From Candidatus Fermentithermobacillaceae bacterium (GTDB lineage: Bacteria; Bacillota; Sulfobacillia; Fermentithermobacillales; Fermentithermobacillaceae), in the NCBI GenBank assembly GCA_012841375.1, contig DUUV01000102.1:1-32473 (forward strand): a stretch of DNA of 32,473 bases. The letters are read 5' to 3'. The position numbers and the translations under genes are program-made. The notes beneath the pieces were generated by a model that saw nothing but the letters and a program-made list of their open reading frames with translations, ran no database searches and had not been told where the DNA came from. Below, one piece after another: positions 9,639-28,920 of this stretch (position 1 is the first letter of the stretch; the number at the start of each line of letters is the position of its first letter).

Positions 9639-10769
9639 GTGAACATATCGTTCCTGCTTCTTAGGGACTTTCGGAACTATCGCCATCTTGAACTCACGCT
9701 TAAGCCGGGAGTCTCCTTGTTTTTCGGCCGGAACGCGTCGGGGAAAACCAACCTCTTAGAGGCCTGTTATTACTTGTCTTCACTTAACTCGGTAAGGGCC
9801 GAACGCGACTACGACCTGGCTCGTTGGGGGACCCCGGGGTTCAGCGTGGGGTGCAGGGTAGACCACAACGGAAGCGCCAAGACGATCAAGGTCCAAGTCA
9901 GAGTAGAGCCGGCGCTCCGGAGAAAGATCACCGTGGAAGATGTGGCAGTGCGGAGAAGCGACCTGGTCCGGGTGCTCCCGTCAGTGTACTTTTCACCTGA
10001 TGACCTTTACATGGTGAAACGTGGCTCGGCCCTCAGGAGGAAGTTTCTCGACTCGTTATTGGGGAGGATCGATCCCGAGTACAGCCGCCAGCTCACCAGG
10101 TATCAGGACGCCGTGAGCCGCAGGAACAGTGTCCTCAAGAAGATACGGATGGGCTCCGAGTGGCGTACGACCTTGGAACCTCTCGACTGCATCTTAGTGG
10201 AGTCAGGGTCTGTGGTACTGGCAAAAAGGTTGGCAGCCATGCCGGACCTACGGAGGGAAGTTTCTGAGACCTATAGGTTCATTTCCGGACGGCCGTGCGA
10301 TGTAGTTTACGCCGCATCCATAGGCGAGAGCCTTCAAGAGGACCATACCGTCCGGGATATCGCGAGGCAATTTGAAGAACGCCTGGCGTCTCTCAGGGAA
10401 GAAGAAACCGTCAGGGGTATGACGTTGTCGGGCCCTCACCGGGACGATATTGTCCTCAGGCTTGACGGAAAGGCAATCAGGTACTTCGGCTCGCAAGGAG
10501 AACAGCGCAGCGCGGCCCTTGCGCTGAAGATGGCCGAGTCGAAGATGCTGGAGGCTGTCTTCGGCAGGCATCCTGTGCTCCTTCTGGATGACGTGTTCTC
10601 TGAACTGGACGAAGAGAGACGGAATAGGGTGCTCTCCCTCTGTGATTTCGGACATCAGATCCTTATGACGTCGACTGACCCGATTAAGAGCATGGTGCCG
10701 CGTGTGGCTGAGTTCCTGGTCGGCGGCGGCACCGTCGAACCCTGCGGGGAGGGGTTGAGGCGTGAGTAA
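9639..10769 (+). CDS. recF: DNA replication and repair protein RecF
   Basis: RecF is an SMC-like ATPase that acts with RecO and RecR to load RecA at gaps. The 376-residue protein has Walker A GRNASGKT at 30-37, the ABC signature LSGPHRDD from residue 263, and Walker B LLLDDVFSELDEE near 313. The start is GTG at 9639, 4 bp after dnaN. Unlike the Bacillus subtilis order, no small S4-domain gene (yaaA/rlbA) lies between dnaN and recF. The end overlaps the next gene by 8 bp. Confidence 0.95.
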   Translation: MNISFLLLRDFRNYRHLELTLKPGVSLFFGRNASGKTNLLEACYYLSSLNSVRAERDYDLARWGTPGFSVGCRVDHNGSAKTIKVQVRVEPALRRKITVEDVAVRRSDLVRVLPSVYFSPDDLYMVKRGSALRRKFLDSLLGRIDPEYSRQLTRYQDAVSRRNSVLKKIRMGSEWRTTLEPLDCILVESGSVVLAKRLAAMPDLRREVSETYRFISGRPCDVVYAASIGESLQEDHTVRDIARQFEERLASLREEETVRGMTLSGPHRDDIVLRLDGKAIRYFGSQGEQRSAALALKMAESKMLEAVFGRHPVLLLDDVFSELDEERRNRVLSLCDFGHQILMTSTDPIKSMVPRVAEFLVGGGTVEPCGEGLRRE

Positions 10770-11639
10770 GCGCGGCACCGGCGGGGCGGGCGTGGCTCCC
10801 GTCGCGCAGGTCCTCCAGAAGTCTTTGACCAACCTGGGCCTTCTCAAGAAGATGAGGAGATATCAGGTTTTCTCTGTATGGCCCAAGGTCGTAGGGGATA
10901 TCGCGCGTCACGCGAAACCAAGAAGGTTGGCCGGAGACGTGTTGTATGTGGCGACCGCCTCATCCGCTTGGTCACAGGAGCTCACCTTCATGCGCCAGAG
11001 TATCCTCGATAAGCTCAAGACCGCCCTCCAAGGCGAGTATGTCCGGGAAATACGTTTCTCAGAACATCTATGGGACCCTACCGAGCTCGAAAACGGCACC
11101 GCCGTAGACCTTCCGCTGATGGCCAAAGGCGAGGGCGAAGCCGCCATGGACGCCATTCCTGACCGGCAGCTCGCTCACTATGCCAAGCGGTTCTGTTCCA
11201 TAATGGCCAGGCGCAAGGTGTATCTCTTGAGAAAGGGATACGTTAGGTGCGCAAGATGCGGGTGCCTATATCCTTCCGCTAAGCGAGAATGCCCTTTTTG
11301 CGCAGTGGAACGGGAATGGAGAGCCAGGCGAAGAGCCATAGCTATCCTCGAAAAGGCTCCTCACCTGCCTGACGAAGAGGTCCAGAGTCTCATCGGCTCT
11401 GTTTGCCTGGAGCCGGTCCGGTCGGCAAGGCGGGAACTGGAGTCGAGATGCCTTACCATAGCGAGGAGCGCTCTTAATGCCGATGGGAAATGGGCCGCGG
11501 TAGACAGGAACGAGATTACCGGGGCCATCGAGAAGATGGCAGCCCTAAGGTCCCTGAAGCCCGCCGCTGACATGACGGCTCACGAGATTGAAAAGGCAGT
11601 AGGCAAGCGGCTCTTCCTCGCTGCGAAGAGGGGTAGCCA

Positions 11640-13855
<2,216 letters not shown>

Positions 13856-16298: not shown

Positions 16299-16733
16299 AT
16301 GGGAGACGGGCGGGGCCGGTCGGGCTACGAGTACGCCAAGCACGTCGCGGATGTCAGGATAAGGGCGTGGGGAAGCGGGCTTGAGGAGACCCTTGTGGCC
16401 GTGACCGGTGGCCTGTGGCGATACGTACTTGGAAACGCATCCGTGCCCATCACTAGGTCGTGGGAAGTATCCGCCAGAGGACAGGACCTGGAGGACGCCC
16501 TCGTAGGTTTTCTGAACGAGCAGATATTCCTGTATGAGTCGGAAGGACTCCTACCCGCCTCGGTGAAAGACTTGAGGGTCCGGGGAGAACACGGCGCCGT
16601 ATCATTGCGCGCGCTGTTCGAAGGGTGCCTTTCCAATGAAATGCCCACCGCTCCCGAGAGACAGGTGAAGGCCGCTACTTTCCACGAACTGGTGGTAAGG
16701 CCGGAACTCATAGAAGTCACGCTGGACGTGTGA
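16299..16733 (+). CDS. Archease, RtcB cofactor
   Basis: Archease speeds up guanylylation and turnover of the RNA ligase RtcB. The 144-residue sequence has the metal-binding start of the family, His15-x2-Asp18 in KHVADVRIRAWG. It ends in an archease-like stretch with Tyr replaced by Phe: ATFHELVVRPELIEVTLDV. The middle part FLNEQIFLYESEGLLP also fits. It starts 6 bp after gyrA and ends 17 bp before rtcB, which supports both the call and a shared transcript. The ribosome-binding site is weak (GAAGGTGA), so it may be translated by coupling to gyrA. Confidence 0.88.
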   Translation: MGDGRGRSGYEYAKHVADVRIRAWGSGLEETLVAVTGGLWRYVLGNASVPITRSWEVSARGQDLEDALVGFLNEQIFLYESEGLLPASVKDLRVRGEHGAVSLRALFEGCLSNEMPTAPERQVKAATFHELVVRPELIEVTLDV

Positions 16734-16750
16734 CATGGTGAGGTGAGAAC

Positions 16751-18199
16751 ATGTCGTCAATCCGCCCGGCGCGAGACACAAAGCGCGAGTTTCACTGGAT
16801 CATTGAACCCTCCGGTTCAATGCGGGTACCAGGTGTTATCTACGCCACCCAAAGCATCATCAAGGACCTTGCAGGGACCAAAGCGCTCCAGCAGGTGGCA
16901 AACGTAGCGTGCCTTCCCGGCATCCTGGAAGGTTCATTCGCCATGCCCGACATCCATGAAGGCTACGGTTTTCCAATCGGCGGAGTAGCCGCCGTCCCTG
17001 CCGGCGATGGGTTCATCACTCCCGGAGGCATCGGGTACGACATCAATTGCGGCGTCAGGGTGCTCCTTTCGCCACTTGCTCGAGACCAGGTTCAAGGCAG
17101 GCTTCCACGGCTCGTTGAGGCATTATTCCGGAAGATTCCAAGCGGTGTGGGTAAGGAAGGCCCGATCGCCCTATCGCCGGACGACTTGGAACGGGTGTTG
17201 GTCGACGGCGCGCAGTGGGCCGTGGGCAAAGGCTACGGTTCGCGAGAAGACCTGACCCACTGCGAAGAGGGCGGCGCCATGGCGGGAGCCGACCCCGGGG
17301 CCGTGTCGGAGAGGGCCCTAAGGCGGGGGAGGAGAGGGGTCGGGACTCTGGGCTCAGGTAACCATTTCATCGAGGCAGGGGCCGTATCAGAGATATTCGA
17401 CTACGAGGCCGCGAAGGCGTTCGGGCTCTTCCCGGAGCAAGTGGTCTTTTGGGTACACTCAGGCTCCCGGGGGTTAGGACACCAGGTTTGCACCGACTAT
17501 CTGGTAACCATGCGCCACGCTGTCTCCAAGTACGGTCCTCATCTGCCGGACCGGCAGCTCGACGGCGCGCCCCTTTCGTCGCCTGAAGGGCGCAAGTATT
17601 TCTCGGCCATGGCCGCCGCAGCCAACTACGCCTGGGCAAACCGCCAGGTCCTTGCCCATTATGTACGCCAGGTAGCCTGTGAGGTTTTCCCGGAAATAGG
17701 CGGGGAAGAGAACCTGCCCCTTCTCTATGACGTTGCCCACAACATAGGAAAGCTGGAGCGACACACGATTGGCGGCCGCGAGATGATGGTCTTGGTGCAC
17801 AGGAAAGGGGCAACGCGCGCTTTCCCTCCCGGCCACCCCGACATCCCCGAAGGATTTCGTACTGTCGGCCAGCCCGTGCTCGTGCCGGGCGACATGGGTC
17901 GGGCGTCTTACATCCTGAGCGGCACGCAAGAAGCAATGGGTCTGTCGTTTGGTTCTGCCTGCCATGGGGCAGGGAGGGCCAAGTCCCGGGCCGAAGCGAG
18001 AAGAGACTTGTCCCCCGAAGCGCTGCAAGGAGAGCTCAGGCAGAAGGGAATCCATGTGAGGTCAGCTTCTCTGAAGGGGCTTGTGGAGGAGGCGCCTTCG
18101 GCCTACAAAGATGTGGATGAAGTTGTCGCGGCCACTCACGGTGCCGGTTTGGCGAAGAAGGTAGCCAAGCTTAGACCGCTGGCAGTGATAAAAGGATAA
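16751..18199 (+). CDS. rtcB: RNA-splicing ligase RtcB
   Basis: RtcB is a manganese- and GTP-dependent ligase that joins RNA 2',3'-cyclic phosphate (or 3'-phosphate) ends to 5'-hydroxyl ends in tRNA splicing or RNA repair. Key residues are visible: MPDIHEGYGFPIGGVAA, then GGIGYDINCGVRVL with metal-binding Cys100, VHSGSRGLGHQV, and the guanylylated His405 in GSACHGAGR. The 482-residue length is that of the long archaeal-type form. It is preceded by archease and followed by mtnP. With no intron-containing tRNA in the window, RNA repair is the likelier use. ATG at 16751 follows GGTGAGG. Confidence 0.95.
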   Translation: MSSIRPARDTKREFHWIIEPSGSMRVPGVIYATQSIIKDLAGTKALQQVANVACLPGILEGSFAMPDIHEGYGFPIGGVAAVPAGDGFITPGGIGYDINCGVRVLLSPLARDQVQGRLPRLVEALFRKIPSGVGKEGPIALSPDDLERVLVDGAQWAVGKGYGSREDLTHCEEGGAMAGADPGAVSERALRRGRRGVGTLGSGNHFIEAGAVSEIFDYEAAKAFGLFPEQVVFWVHSGSRGLGHQVCTDYLVTMRHAVSKYGPHLPDRQLDGAPLSSPEGRKYFSAMAAAANYAWANRQVLAHYVRQVACEVFPEIGGEENLPLLYDVAHNIGKLERHTIGGREMMVLVHRKGATRAFPPGHPDIPEGFRTVGQPVLVPGDMGRASYILSGTQEAMGLSFGSACHGAGRAKSRAEARRDLSPEALQGELRQKGIHVRSASLKGLVEEAPSAYKDVDEVVAATHGAGLAKKVAKLRPLAVIKG

Positions 18200-18275
18200 G
18201 AGGACGCGCGGCCGAGGTGAAGTCTTCCCTGCCGTGTCACGTCTCAGAATTAAGGAATGGAGGAGGGGAAAGGAG

Positions 18276-19076
18276 ATGGAACGTTCGGCCGAGATCGCCG
18301 TCATTGGCGGCACCGGGTTCTACAAACTCCTTGAAGAGGCTCAAGAAGTCAAAGTCGATACGCCGTTTGGGGCTCCCAGCGACCTTATTTCCTTGGGCAG
18401 CATCGCCGGTAGAAGGGTGGCGTTCTTGCCCCGCCACGGCAGACACCACCAGTTTCCCCCCCACATGATCAACTACAGGGCGAACATATGGGCCCTCAGA
18501 GAACTAGGCGTCCAGCGGATCATTGGTCCTTGTGCGGCGGGCAGCCTGCAGCCCGAGGCAAAACCCGGCGATTTCGTGATCTGCGACCAGTTCGTCGACC
18601 GCACGACAGGCCGGAAGGATACCTTTTACGATGGGCCCAGGGCGATACATATCAGCTCGGCGGAGCCATATTGCCGGGAAATGCGAAGCGTTGCGATTCA
18701 GGCCGCCGGGACGCTGGACCTGCCGTTTCACCCCTCCGGTACCATGGTGGTCATCCAGGGTCCCAGGTTCTCTACCAAGGCCGAGTCCCGGTGGTTTTCG
18801 TCTCTAGGGTGGAAGGTAATCAACATGACCGGCTATCCCGAGGCGGTCTTGGCCAGGGAACTGGGCATGTGTTACCTGAACGTCTCTCTGATCACCGACT
18901 ACGACGCGGGACTTGAGGGCAGGGAGGATGTAGCTGCCGTAACTCAAGACGAAGTCGTAAGGGTGTTCCTGGAACATAACGAGCACCTGAAGCGCCTTAT
19001 CGGGAAGATCGTTGAGGCCCTTCCACCTGCCCGTGGCTGCTCGTGCGAGGAGGACTTGCGGAGAGCGAAGCCCTAG
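18276..19076 (+). CDS. mtnP: S-methyl-5'-thioadenosine phosphorylase
   Basis: MtnP splits methylthioadenosine with phosphate into adenine and methylthioribose-1-phosphate, the first step of methionine salvage. The 266-residue protein has the phosphate loop GGTGFY at 11-16, RHGRHHQFPPHMINYRANIW from residue 53, GPRFSTKAESRWF, and NMTGYPEA from Asn183. The later ITDYDAG keeps the Asp residues linked with 6-aminopurine preference, which favours MTA phosphorylase over a guanosine or inosine type. ATG at 18276 has AGGAGG 9 nt upstream; a GTG at 18234 would add 14 poorly matching residues. mtnA, the next pathway gene, follows after 47 bp. Confidence 0.9.
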   Translation: MERSAEIAVIGGTGFYKLLEEAQEVKVDTPFGAPSDLISLGSIAGRRVAFLPRHGRHHQFPPHMINYRANIWALRELGVQRIIGPCAAGSLQPEAKPGDFVICDQFVDRTTGRKDTFYDGPRAIHISSAEPYCREMRSVAIQAAGTLDLPFHPSGTMVVIQGPRFSTKAESRWFSSLGWKVINMTGYPEAVLARELGMCYLNVSLITDYDAGLEGREDVAAVTQDEVVRVFLEHNEHLKRLIGKIVEALPPARGCSCEEDLRRAKP

Positions 19077-19123
19077 GGTATTTGCGGGGAGACCGGTGGA
19101 CTCCGGCGTTGGAGGTGGCATAG

Positions 19124-20236
19124 ATGATACCGGCGATTGAGTGGGAAGACGGGAGGCTCGTCCTCCTCGACCAGAGGTACTTGCCTGGGCGGATAGAGTT
19201 TGTCCGTTGTAGGGATTTCCGGGAAATAGCAGGCGCCATAAAGGATATGGTAGTGAGAGGCGCCCCCGCCATAGGCATTGCCGGCGGATACGCGGTGGCC
19301 GTTGCCGTTCGAGAATGCAGAGACGGGGCGCGAGGGACCGACGGAAAGGACCGCCCTCTTGCCATAGAGGCGGATCTTGAGAAGTGCGCCGCATTCCTGA
19401 AAGAGGCAGCGGACCACATTTCGGCCGCTCGCCCTACTGCCGTGAACCTCATGTGGGCCGTGGACAGAGTTCTAGAGAAAGCACTGTCTGTACTCCGTGA
19501 CATCCTGAGGGCAGGTTCTGGACTCGAGACGGCTCTCGCGGAGGCGTACACCTCGGCGCTGGAAGAGGCCAGGGCTATCGAGAGGGAAGACCTGGAGATG
19601 AACAAGAGGATCGGGGCCAACGGCGCCCGCCTGATCCGCCCGGGTTCCCGGGTGCTCACCCACTGCAACGCCGGCGCCCTTGCCACGGGGGGTTATGGGA
19701 CGGCCCTGGGTGTTATCAGGAAGGCTTGGGAAGAGAAGAAGATATCCATGGTCTACGCCTGCGAGACACGTCCCTACCTGCAGGGCGCCCGGCTGACGGC
19801 TTGGGAACTCACTCAGGATGGTATCGACGTTACGTTGCTGGTGGACAGCGCCGCAGGGTATCTCATGTCCAAGGGAATGGTCGATTGCGTTGTAGTGGGG
19901 GCCGATCGTATCGCTCTGAACGGTGACGTAGCGAACAAGATCGGCACATACACTCTGGCGTGTCTCGCAGGCATCCACGACATCCCGTTCTACGTCGCGG
20001 CGCCCACCTCGACCTTTGACCCCACCATTAGCGATATGTCGGCGATCCCCGTAGAGGAGCGGTCACCCGAAGAAGTCCTCCATTTCAGGGGAGCGCCCAC
20101 CGGGCCGGAGGGGGTTAAGGCTGTGAACCCGTCCTTCGACCTTACACCCCACAAGCTCATTTCTGCCATAATCACGGAGAAGGGCGTCATAGAGCCCCCG
20201 ATACCCGAGAACTTACCCAGGGTCATCAAGGGATAA
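19124..20236 (+). CDS. mtnA: S-methyl-5-thioribose-1-phosphate isomerase
   Basis: MtnA converts methylthioribose-1-phosphate, the product of MtnP, into methylthioribulose-1-phosphate. The 370-residue sequence shows VVRGAPAIGIAGGY near the start, the catalytic cysteine Cys181 in THCNAGALATGGYGTALGVI, and the catalytic aspartate Asp261 in GADRIALNGDVANKIGTY. It resembles eIF2B-alpha-like regulatory folds, but these residues make the isomerase call firm. No further salvage genes (mtnB, C, D, W or K) are in the window. Two AbrB-like genes follow after 24 bp and may share the transcript. Confidence 0.94.
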   Translation: MIPAIEWEDGRLVLLDQRYLPGRIEFVRCRDFREIAGAIKDMVVRGAPAIGIAGGYAVAVAVRECRDGARGTDGKDRPLAIEADLEKCAAFLKEAADHISAARPTAVNLMWAVDRVLEKALSVLRDILRAGSGLETALAEAYTSALEEARAIEREDLEMNKRIGANGARLIRPGSRVLTHCNAGALATGGYGTALGVIRKAWEEKKISMVYACETRPYLQGARLTAWELTQDGIDVTLLVDSAAGYLMSKGMVDCVVVGADRIALNGDVANKIGTYTLACLAGIHDIPFYVAAPTSTFDPTISDMSAIPVEERSPEEVLHFRGAPTGPEGVKAVNPSFDLTPHKLISAIITEKGVIEPPIPENLPRVIKG

Positions 20237-20260: not shown

Positions 20261-20737
20261 ATGAACGAGAACAAAGGCCGGATCGAAGAGCGAGTCAACA
20301 ATGAGGAGCCGGAGCCGACATTGATTAAGTCCCGTTTCATAGACTCAGGCTGGCGTCTTACGATCCCGAAAGCCATAAGGGATCGCCTCGGCTGTTCCCC
20401 GGGCACCCCTATTTGCGTCAGCTATGACGGCATAGACATTATCGTGAAGTGCCCGACTACGTGCACGGATTGCCCCGATGTCGTACGCATGGGGTCGCTG
20501 GGCAAGGTTGTGTTGCCGCCCCGTGTCAGAGCGGAAGCGAACCTCTACAGGGGCCAGGTCATGACATTGAGTGTTGAAGACGGAAGAGTTCTTGTGAAGA
20601 GCGGAGATTCGCAGGTCCGCTGCAAGGCCTGCGGGTCGGAAATGGATGTCAAAGAGGAACTGGCCAACGTCCATCTCTGTCGCAGGTGCAGAGAGTCTCT
20701 GCAGAAGGCGGCAGTAAGAGCAGTAACCTGGAGGTAA
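20261..20737 (+). CDS. Double AbrB/SpoVT-like domain protein with zinc ribbon, copy 1
   Basis: This 158-residue protein is probably a transcription regulator. It has two swapped-hairpin AbrB-like units, about residues 25-62 (DSGWRLTIPKAIRDRLG) and 74-112 (GSLGKVVLPPRVRAEANLYRG). A C-terminal zinc ribbon follows, Cys121-x2-Cys124-x15-Cys140-x2-Cys143. Three more cysteines (64, 68, 71) sit between the AbrB units. ATG at 20261 has GGAGG 5 nt upstream. The next gene, 3 bp away, has the same plan. AbrB-like units usually dimerise to bind DNA, so one chain may form the unit alone. The target is unknown; I do not recognise a named family. Confidence 0.72.
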   Translation: MNENKGRIEERVNNEEPEPTLIKSRFIDSGWRLTIPKAIRDRLGCSPGTPICVSYDGIDIIVKCPTTCTDCPDVVRMGSLGKVVLPPRVRAEANLYRGQVMTLSVEDGRVLVKSGDSQVRCKACGSEMDVKEELANVHLCRRCRESLQKAAVRAVTWR

Positions 20738-20740
20738 TCG

Positions 20741-21250
20741 ATGAGACTTCAGGCCACCAAGACGCCAAGACAACATATGTCTACCTTGACCAACGGCTGG
20801 CGGTTCACGCTTCCCACGGCCATACGGAAGGCTCACGGGTGGGGTGCGGGCACAAAGCTCACTGCCATGATAAGGGGCGCAAGCCTGGTTTTCAGCACTA
20901 ACCCTCAAGTGGAAGACAGTCACACGTCCACCAATGGCAACCTGGCCAGAGAATTCGGTGACGAGATGTTCACTCCCGTCGAGTGCCATCTTGGCTCAGG
21001 CGGCAAGATTGTGTTGCCCGGTCCTATTAGGAGGCACCTGGGATGGGTCGTCGGCAAGCGCCTTGTGATTGTTGATGAGGGCGACGCTGTCGCCGCCACT
21101 CTTTGCTGTGATGCGAAGCGATGTGAATCGTGTAGAAGCATATCGGGAGTGCGGGAGGTCATCCAGAACGTCTTCCTATGCTCACAGTGTTGGGGTCAGT
21201 ACCTTCGCGAGATGAACTCCAAGCTCCGGCTTGGGAAGGTCAGGGTTTAG
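20741..21250 (+). CDS. Double AbrB/SpoVT-like domain protein with zinc ribbon, copy 2
   Basis: This 169-residue protein is a diverged relative of the gene before it. AbrB-like unit 1 is at about residues 14-52 (NGWRFTLPTAIRKAHGWGAG). Unit 2 is at about 85-118 (GSGGKIVLPGPIRRHLGW). The zinc ribbon is Cys128-x2-Cys131-x15-Cys147-x2-Cys150, with the same 15-residue spacing and an NVFLC that matches NVHLC in copy 1. The linker between the two units is longer and lacks the cysteines of copy 1. ATG at 20741 has GGAGG 6 nt upstream. Co-expression and heteromer formation are plausible but inferred. Confidence 0.72.
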   Translation: MRLQATKTPRQHMSTLTNGWRFTLPTAIRKAHGWGAGTKLTAMIRGASLVFSTNPQVEDSHTSTNGNLAREFGDEMFTPVECHLGSGGKIVLPGPIRRHLGWVVGKRLVIVDEGDAVAATLCCDAKRCESCRSISGVREVIQNVFLCSQCWGQYLREMNSKLRLGKVRV

Positions 21251-21355: not shown

Positions 21356-21430
21356 GCGGGAGTAGTTTAGTGGTAGAACGTCGGCTTCCCAAGCCGAAGG
21401 CCGCGGGTTCGAGCCCCGTCTCCCGCTCCA
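21356..21430 (+). tRNA. tRNA-Gly (anticodon CCC)
   Basis: This is a complete 75-base cloverleaf with encoded CCA. The acceptor GCGGGAG pairs with CTCCCGC, the anticodon stem TCGGC/GCCGA encloses TTCCCAA, and the T arm contains GGTTCGAGCCC. Anticodon CCC reads the glycine codon GGG. Confidence 0.96.
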
Positions 21431-21468
21431 GTTGATTTCCGCGGCACTCATGCGGAAAGGTCAGACGA

Positions 21469-21543
21469 GCCAGCGTAGCTCAGTGGTAGAGCAGCGGTTT
21501 CGTAAACCGCAGGCCATGGGTTCGAATCCCTTCGCTGGCTCCA
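21469..21543 (+). tRNA. tRNA-Thr (anticodon CGT)
   Basis: This is a complete 75-base cloverleaf with encoded CCA. The acceptor GCCAGCG pairs with CGCTGGC, the anticodon stem GCGGT/ACCGC encloses TTCGTAA, and the T arm contains GGTTCGAATCCC. Anticodon CGT reads the threonine codon ACG. It lies 38 bp after tRNA-Gly and shares its promoter. Confidence 0.96.
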
Positions 21544-28764: not shown

Positions 28765-28838
28765 TGGGGGATCGGCTAGTGGTAGGCCAACAGACTCTGG
28801 ATCTGTCTGCGGAGGTTCGAATCCTTCTCCCCCAGCCA
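28765..28838 (+). tRNA. tRNA-Gln (anticodon CTG)
   Basis: This is a complete 74-base cloverleaf with encoded CCA. The acceptor TGGGGGA pairs with TCCCCCA, the anticodon stem ACAGA/TCTGT encloses CTCTGGA, and the T arm has GGTTCGAATCC. Anticodon CTG reads CAG. The weak U1-A72 first pair is typical of bacterial tRNA-Gln. Confidence 0.95.
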
Positions 28839-28844
28839 GTATGT

Positions 28845-28920
28845 GGCCCCATCGTCTAGTGGCCTAGGACACCGCCCTCTCACGGCGGAGACAGGGGTTC
28901 GAGTCCCCTTGGGGCTACCA
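28845..28920 (+). tRNA. tRNA-Glu (anticodon CTC)
   Basis: This is a complete 76-base cloverleaf with encoded CCA, 6 bp after tRNA-Gln. The anticodon stem CCGCC/GGCGG encloses CTCTCAC, so it reads GAG. The T arm has GGTTCGAGTCC. The acceptor GGCCCCA pairs with TGGGGCT, which leaves a G1-U72 wobble at the end of the stem. Confidence 0.95.

Follow-up and report, generated by a model that had tools for sequence, protein, structure and literature searches.

Gene pair and coding features

The analysed window of 32,473 nucleotides, part of a 2.37 Mb draft genome, carries two adjacent genes, hereafter A and B, which end the same-strand run that includes gyrB-gyrA. The open reading frame list and the translations confirmed the coordinates, the frames and the CxxC-x15-CxxC spacing that the initial annotation had given for both proteins. 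The start codon of B lies 3 bp past the stop codon of A. The features are as follows:

16299..20236, + strand: archease, rtcB, mtnP and mtnA, upstream of and co-directional with A and B (names by sequence recognition)
20261..20737, + strand: gene A, tandem-AbrB zinc-ribbon protein of 158 amino acids (open reading frame, translation, profile matches, orthologues in 14/14 genomes, AlphaFold model)
20324..20449, + strand: hairpin unit 1 of A, residues 22-63 (predicted secondary structure, invariant columns)
20462..20473, + strand: linker CxxC of A (C68, C71), between units 1 and 2 (invariant in 14/14)
20480..20614, + strand: hairpin unit 2 of A, residues 74-118 (invariant K82 and R90; model)
20621..20689, + strand: ribbon of A, C121-x2-C124-x15-C140-x2-C143 (alignment, model)
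20741..21250, + strand: gene B, diverged paralogue of A, 169 amino acids (open reading frame, translation, orthologues in 14/14 genomes, AlphaFold model)
20771..20896, + strand: hairpin unit 1 of B, residues 11-52 (invariant R21 and R29; model)
20978..21103, + strand: hairpin unit 2 of B, residues 80-121 (invariant K89 and R97; model)
21104..21109, + strand: adjacent cysteines C122-C123 of B, immediately ahead of the ribbon (invariant in the family)
21122..21190, + strand: ribbon of B, C128-x2-C131-x15-C147-x2-C150 (alignment, model)

Unit 1 of A is predicted to consist of strands at residues 22-26 and 32-34, a helix at 37-43 and strands at 50-55 and 60-63, and its basic residues R25, R32 and R40 are invariant in the 14 family genomes. 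In the AlphaFold models the ribbon overlaps the C-terminal helix of each protein (residues 141-156 of A and 148-165 of B), and the loop 131-136 of A is of low confidence.

Profile and fold matches

Protein A matches the AbrB domain models TIGR01439 (E=5.9e-10) and PF04014 (E=3.3e-9), each in two stretches and above the curated cut-off. Protein B also shows two AbrB stretches, which are sub-threshold: TIGR01439 at 2.1e-5 (24.1 bits versus a cut-off of 28.3) and PF04014 at 1.1e-4 (22.5 bits versus 24.7). A is thus a member of the AbrB/SpoVT-AbrB superfamily by profile cut-offs, and B through its unit-by-unit kinship to A. Both AlphaFold models contain two beta-beta-alpha-beta-beta units (mean pLDDT 78.7 and pTM 0.63 for A, 79.1 and 0.61 for B), so that a swapped-hairpin-type unit is predicted in both halves of A and B. 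The plan read from the sequence by the initial annotation, two AbrB-like units and a ribbon per protein, is therefore borne out by the paired Pfam and NCBIfam stretches and by the models, and, as it had supposed, the unit-unit-ribbon arrangement as a whole is not represented by any Pfam or NCBIfam model.

Searching the PDB by sequence alone returned only weak matches. By fold, the top match was MraZ (9.4e-5 for A and 2.0e-5 for B, with a TM of about 0.46 normalised by query length), followed by PHS018 (2glw). These solved structures are precedents for two hairpin units in one chain, a feature that cannot be claimed as a novelty of the pair. We rejected as very improbable the reading of A and B as divergent MraZ proteins, which the top fold match and the shared two-unit chain would favour: on the MraZ model PF02381, A scores 12.6 bits against a cut-off of 23 and B scores nothing, contig C58 of the host genome encodes a separate MraZ whose two halves both exceed the cut-off, and the units and ribbon of A and B match AbrB profiles.

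Ribbon and additional cysteines

The ribbon cysteines, forming two conserved CxxC pairs per protein, are invariant in A and B of all 14 family genomes, and the x15 spacing is constant across the 28 proteins; the cysteine conservation on which the initial reading of the ribbon depended is thus found throughout the family homologues. The complete set of invariant cysteines is C52, C68, C71, C121, C124, C140 and C143 in A and C122, C123, C128, C131, C147 and C150 in B, where C82 is present in 13/14. Those outside the ribbons (C52, C68 and C71 in A; C122-C123, with C82, in B) had been missed.

The ribbon had also been taken as a departure from standard AbrB proteins, which proved incorrect: CxxC-x14/15-CxxC occurs in 12/12 single-unit AbrB proteins examined (the host's own and 11 from the class), with a spacing of x14 in 11 and x15 in one. 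By profile, the ribbons match the single-unit AbrB tail at 2.5e-5 (A) and 1.7e-4 (B), as compared with about 0.1-0.8 for unrelated pairs. Clostridial AbrBs are without the 10-residue C-terminal motif of Bacillus subtilis AbrB but retain Cys54, a residue conserved among them on which DNA binding by the B. subtilis protein depends (PMC9598496). This Cys54 probably corresponds to the first ribbon cysteine. The four-cysteine tail is the ordinary AbrB C-terminus in this class, which bears on AbrB assembly outside Bacillus. As far as we searched the literature, nothing relevant links AbrB with a zinc ribbon and no tandem AbrB-ribbon family has been described.

Elsewhere in the window, between recF and gyrB (10762-11676), a DciA/DUF721-like protein, named by recognition only, has an apparent CxxC...CxxC stretch (RCARCGCLYPSAKRECPFC) that could be a zinc-ribbon insertion or extension.

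Distribution and selection

Both genes are present, adjacent and in the same order in each of the 14 Candidatus Fermentithermobacillaceae genomes examined, both units are kept in A and B throughout, and all named relatives of A belong to this family. A and B are both absent from three sister-family genomes, no full-length A or B was found in 140 other genomes of the class (154 searched, family included), no full-length A was found in a 398-genome sample of the phylum queried with A, and no solo copy was found in the class or phylum sample. The class and phylum matches that we examined were single-unit AbrB proteins, or covered one unit, or unit 2 with the ribbon. One class match spanning profile positions 10-138 (genome G045) was a gapped alignment to an ordinary single-unit AbrB (L083). 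A scan of genome contigs gave only four loci, all of the same family, because its query was one single sequence. A mobile or phage origin was dismissed, as viral contigs searched with the A alignment contained no relative, and plasmids and phages none of A.

Between genomes of one genus, A and B show dN/dS values of about 0.09-0.18, near those of MtnA and with dS close to saturation, which points to purifying selection on A and B. One MtnP pair (win-L047) with a ratio of 1.1 was a frame artefact and was ignored for dN/dS; it is still part of the MtnP distances. Known so far from one family of uncultured bacteria only, the A/B pair is a real, conserved and lineage-restricted variant of AbrB-type regulators.

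Gene neighbourhood

Over the stretches covered, the genes of family members run gyrA - archease - rtcB - mtnP - mtnA - A - B - (amidohydrolase) - por genes. The core, mtnA-linked position proposed by the initial annotation holds within the family, where A and B follow mtnP-mtnA in 14/14 genomes. Beyond it, 16 genomes of the order and class (three of the sister family and 13 further class members) show no AbrB-like open reading frame closer than 1.5 kb to mtnA, so that the linkage is a trait of the family, is ruled out as a general rule and alone is no proof of a role for A and B in methionine salvage. Intergenic gaps are short in most family genomes, which is compatible with one transcription unit.

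Several variations of the locus were observed. In Candidatus Fermentithermobacillus carboniphilus (G004; L044, 5328-6602), a serS-like gene splits mtnA from A, and A and B remain together. In genome G007 (L045, 5936-9278), archease and rtcB are missing here and mtnP-mtnA-A-B directly follow gyrA. In the window, tRNA gene pairs (Rfam) lie at 21356-21540 and 28765-28917, one of them directly 3' of B. A second, distant MtnA-like gene with 36-47% identity occurs in several family genomes (for example G001, G002, G006 and G008-G012); none was found in the genome of the window at E<=1e-30.

Given that the Pfam name of the domain is MazE_antitoxin, A and B could be seen as MazE/VapB-type antitoxins of a type II toxin-antitoxin locus. 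This is highly improbable: the genes around A and B, judged by recognition, are mtnA, the respective paralogue, tRNA genes and an amidohydrolase gene, with no toxin-like gene among them, both A and B are AbrB-like, their order is fixed with core genes in 14/14 genomes, and plasmid or phage copies were not found.

The constant adjacency of A and B in one order, together with the lack of solo copies in the class and phylum samples, the start of B overlapping the stop of A or lying within 3 bp of it in five genomes, and the different invariant extra cysteines of the two proteins, would fit an obligate heteromer in which two different single-chain pseudo-dimers are joined by ribbons or extra cysteines into an assembly that would read asymmetric sites. 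We hold this as a tentative possibility, since co-occurrence with fixed gene order in one family carries little weight and the A-B distance correlation (0.896) is not above the values of 0.91 and 0.90 obtained with the adjacent MtnA, with a partial r of just 0.21 over 14 rows. The heteromer suggested by the initial annotation thus gains no support from the mirror-tree signal, which is no stronger than the one given by neighbouring enzymes. A more specific version, in which the ribbons and the differing extra cysteines would form shared zinc sites and the heteromer would be a family-specific asymmetric DNA reader tied to the gyrA/methionine-salvage region, appears quite unlikely.

Origin of the pair

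Profile comparison gave its best matches between A1 and B1 (1.7e-12), A2 and B2 (5.7e-10) and the two ribbons (8.6e-13), in agreement with the view of the initial annotation that the pair arose by duplication and then diverged strongly. Unit 1 and unit 2 of A match each other at only 0.0045, and unit 2 matches single-unit AbrB at 8.3e-8 (B2) and 1.3e-6 (A2); unit 2 and the ribbon are, from these profiles, the more AbrB-like part of A and B. In a tree of the units, built on few columns and with some forks unresolved, both unit-1 groups fall on one side of a branch supported at 100/100 and the unit-2 groups and AbrB on the other. From the profile comparison and the unit tree, it is most likely that the second unit was added first and the gene duplicated later, both before the family diversified. 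An AbrB with the usual CxxC-x14/15-CxxC tail would have gained an additional N-terminal hairpin unit, and the fused two-unit gene would then have duplicated into A and B ahead of the diversification of Candidatus Fermentithermobacillaceae.

Proposed role

We propose, with a probability of about 0.7, that A and B are paralogous, lineage-specific DNA-binding proteins of the AbrB family, each a swapped-hairpin pair in a single chain. Judging from the predicted units and from MraZ and PHS018, each chain probably packs its two units into one swapped-hairpin barrel, which ordinary AbrB forms as a dimer and which a chain of A or B would form alone; this one-barrel packing is inferred, as the pTM is just 0.61-0.63 and part of the A ribbon is of low confidence. 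AbrB dimers link through their C-termini into tetramers (PMC4022651), and the ribbon and C-terminal helix of A and B are likely to coordinate zinc and to link chains into larger assemblies in an AbrB-like manner. The AbrB-derived reading is supported by the single-unit AbrB proteins with a like tail that the host and other members of its class encode.

Across the 14 genomes, each of the four units carries an invariant basic residue at the positions equivalent to AbrB R15 and R23, and none conserves the R24 equivalent. The basic face formed by the R15 and R23 equivalents would bind DNA, and the pair would on this basis act as transcriptional or nucleoid-type regulators, expressed alongside mtnP-mtnA. 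AbrB needs R24 together with R23 (PMC9598496), and the apparent loss of the R24 equivalent and the scores of B below the AbrB cut-offs count against the proposed reading. Along with the many invariant cysteines outside the ribbons and the fixed linkage to mtnP-mtnA, that loss would suit proteins that no longer bind DNA and act instead mainly as zinc- or redox-sensing or protein-binding regulators of the methionine-salvage and RNA-repair enzymes encoded next to them. We consider this unlikely in view of the invariant basic R15 and R23 equivalents, and gyrA and the por genes are also linked neighbours.

If A and B are indeed AbrB-derived single-chain DNA-binding proteins, they would illustrate a route from a homodimeric swapped-hairpin regulator to a single-chain two-unit protein and on to a diverged pair, and would help in studying how symmetric DNA readers turn asymmetric. 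The practical weight is modest.

Comparison with known systems

The clostridial-type single-unit AbrB, represented in the host on contig C75 (L053), shares with A and B a four-cysteine tail directly after the hairpin unit, but differs in having one unit per chain, R24 in most cases and mainly an x14 tail. The host has this AbrB as a separate gene, and the plan of an AbrB orthologue, one unit with a C-terminal multimerisation domain, does not describe A or B. SpoVT, with a host copy on the same contig (L056), shares the AbrB-type N-terminal unit; it has one such unit followed by a GAF-type C-terminal domain, and no ribbon. MraZ resembles A and B in its two swapped-hairpin units per chain, whereas A and B fall outside its curated sequence cut-off and lie behind mtnA near gyrA, not in the dcw cluster upstream of mraW; to our knowledge, MraZ has no ribbon of the A/B type. 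PHS018 of Pyrococcus horikoshii (PDB 2glw) likewise places two AbrB-like units in a short chain (92 amino acids) and gives a weak match in sequence and a stronger one in fold, but is archaeal and without the ribbon. The component parts of A and B are thus already known, and what is new is their combination and the diverged pair.
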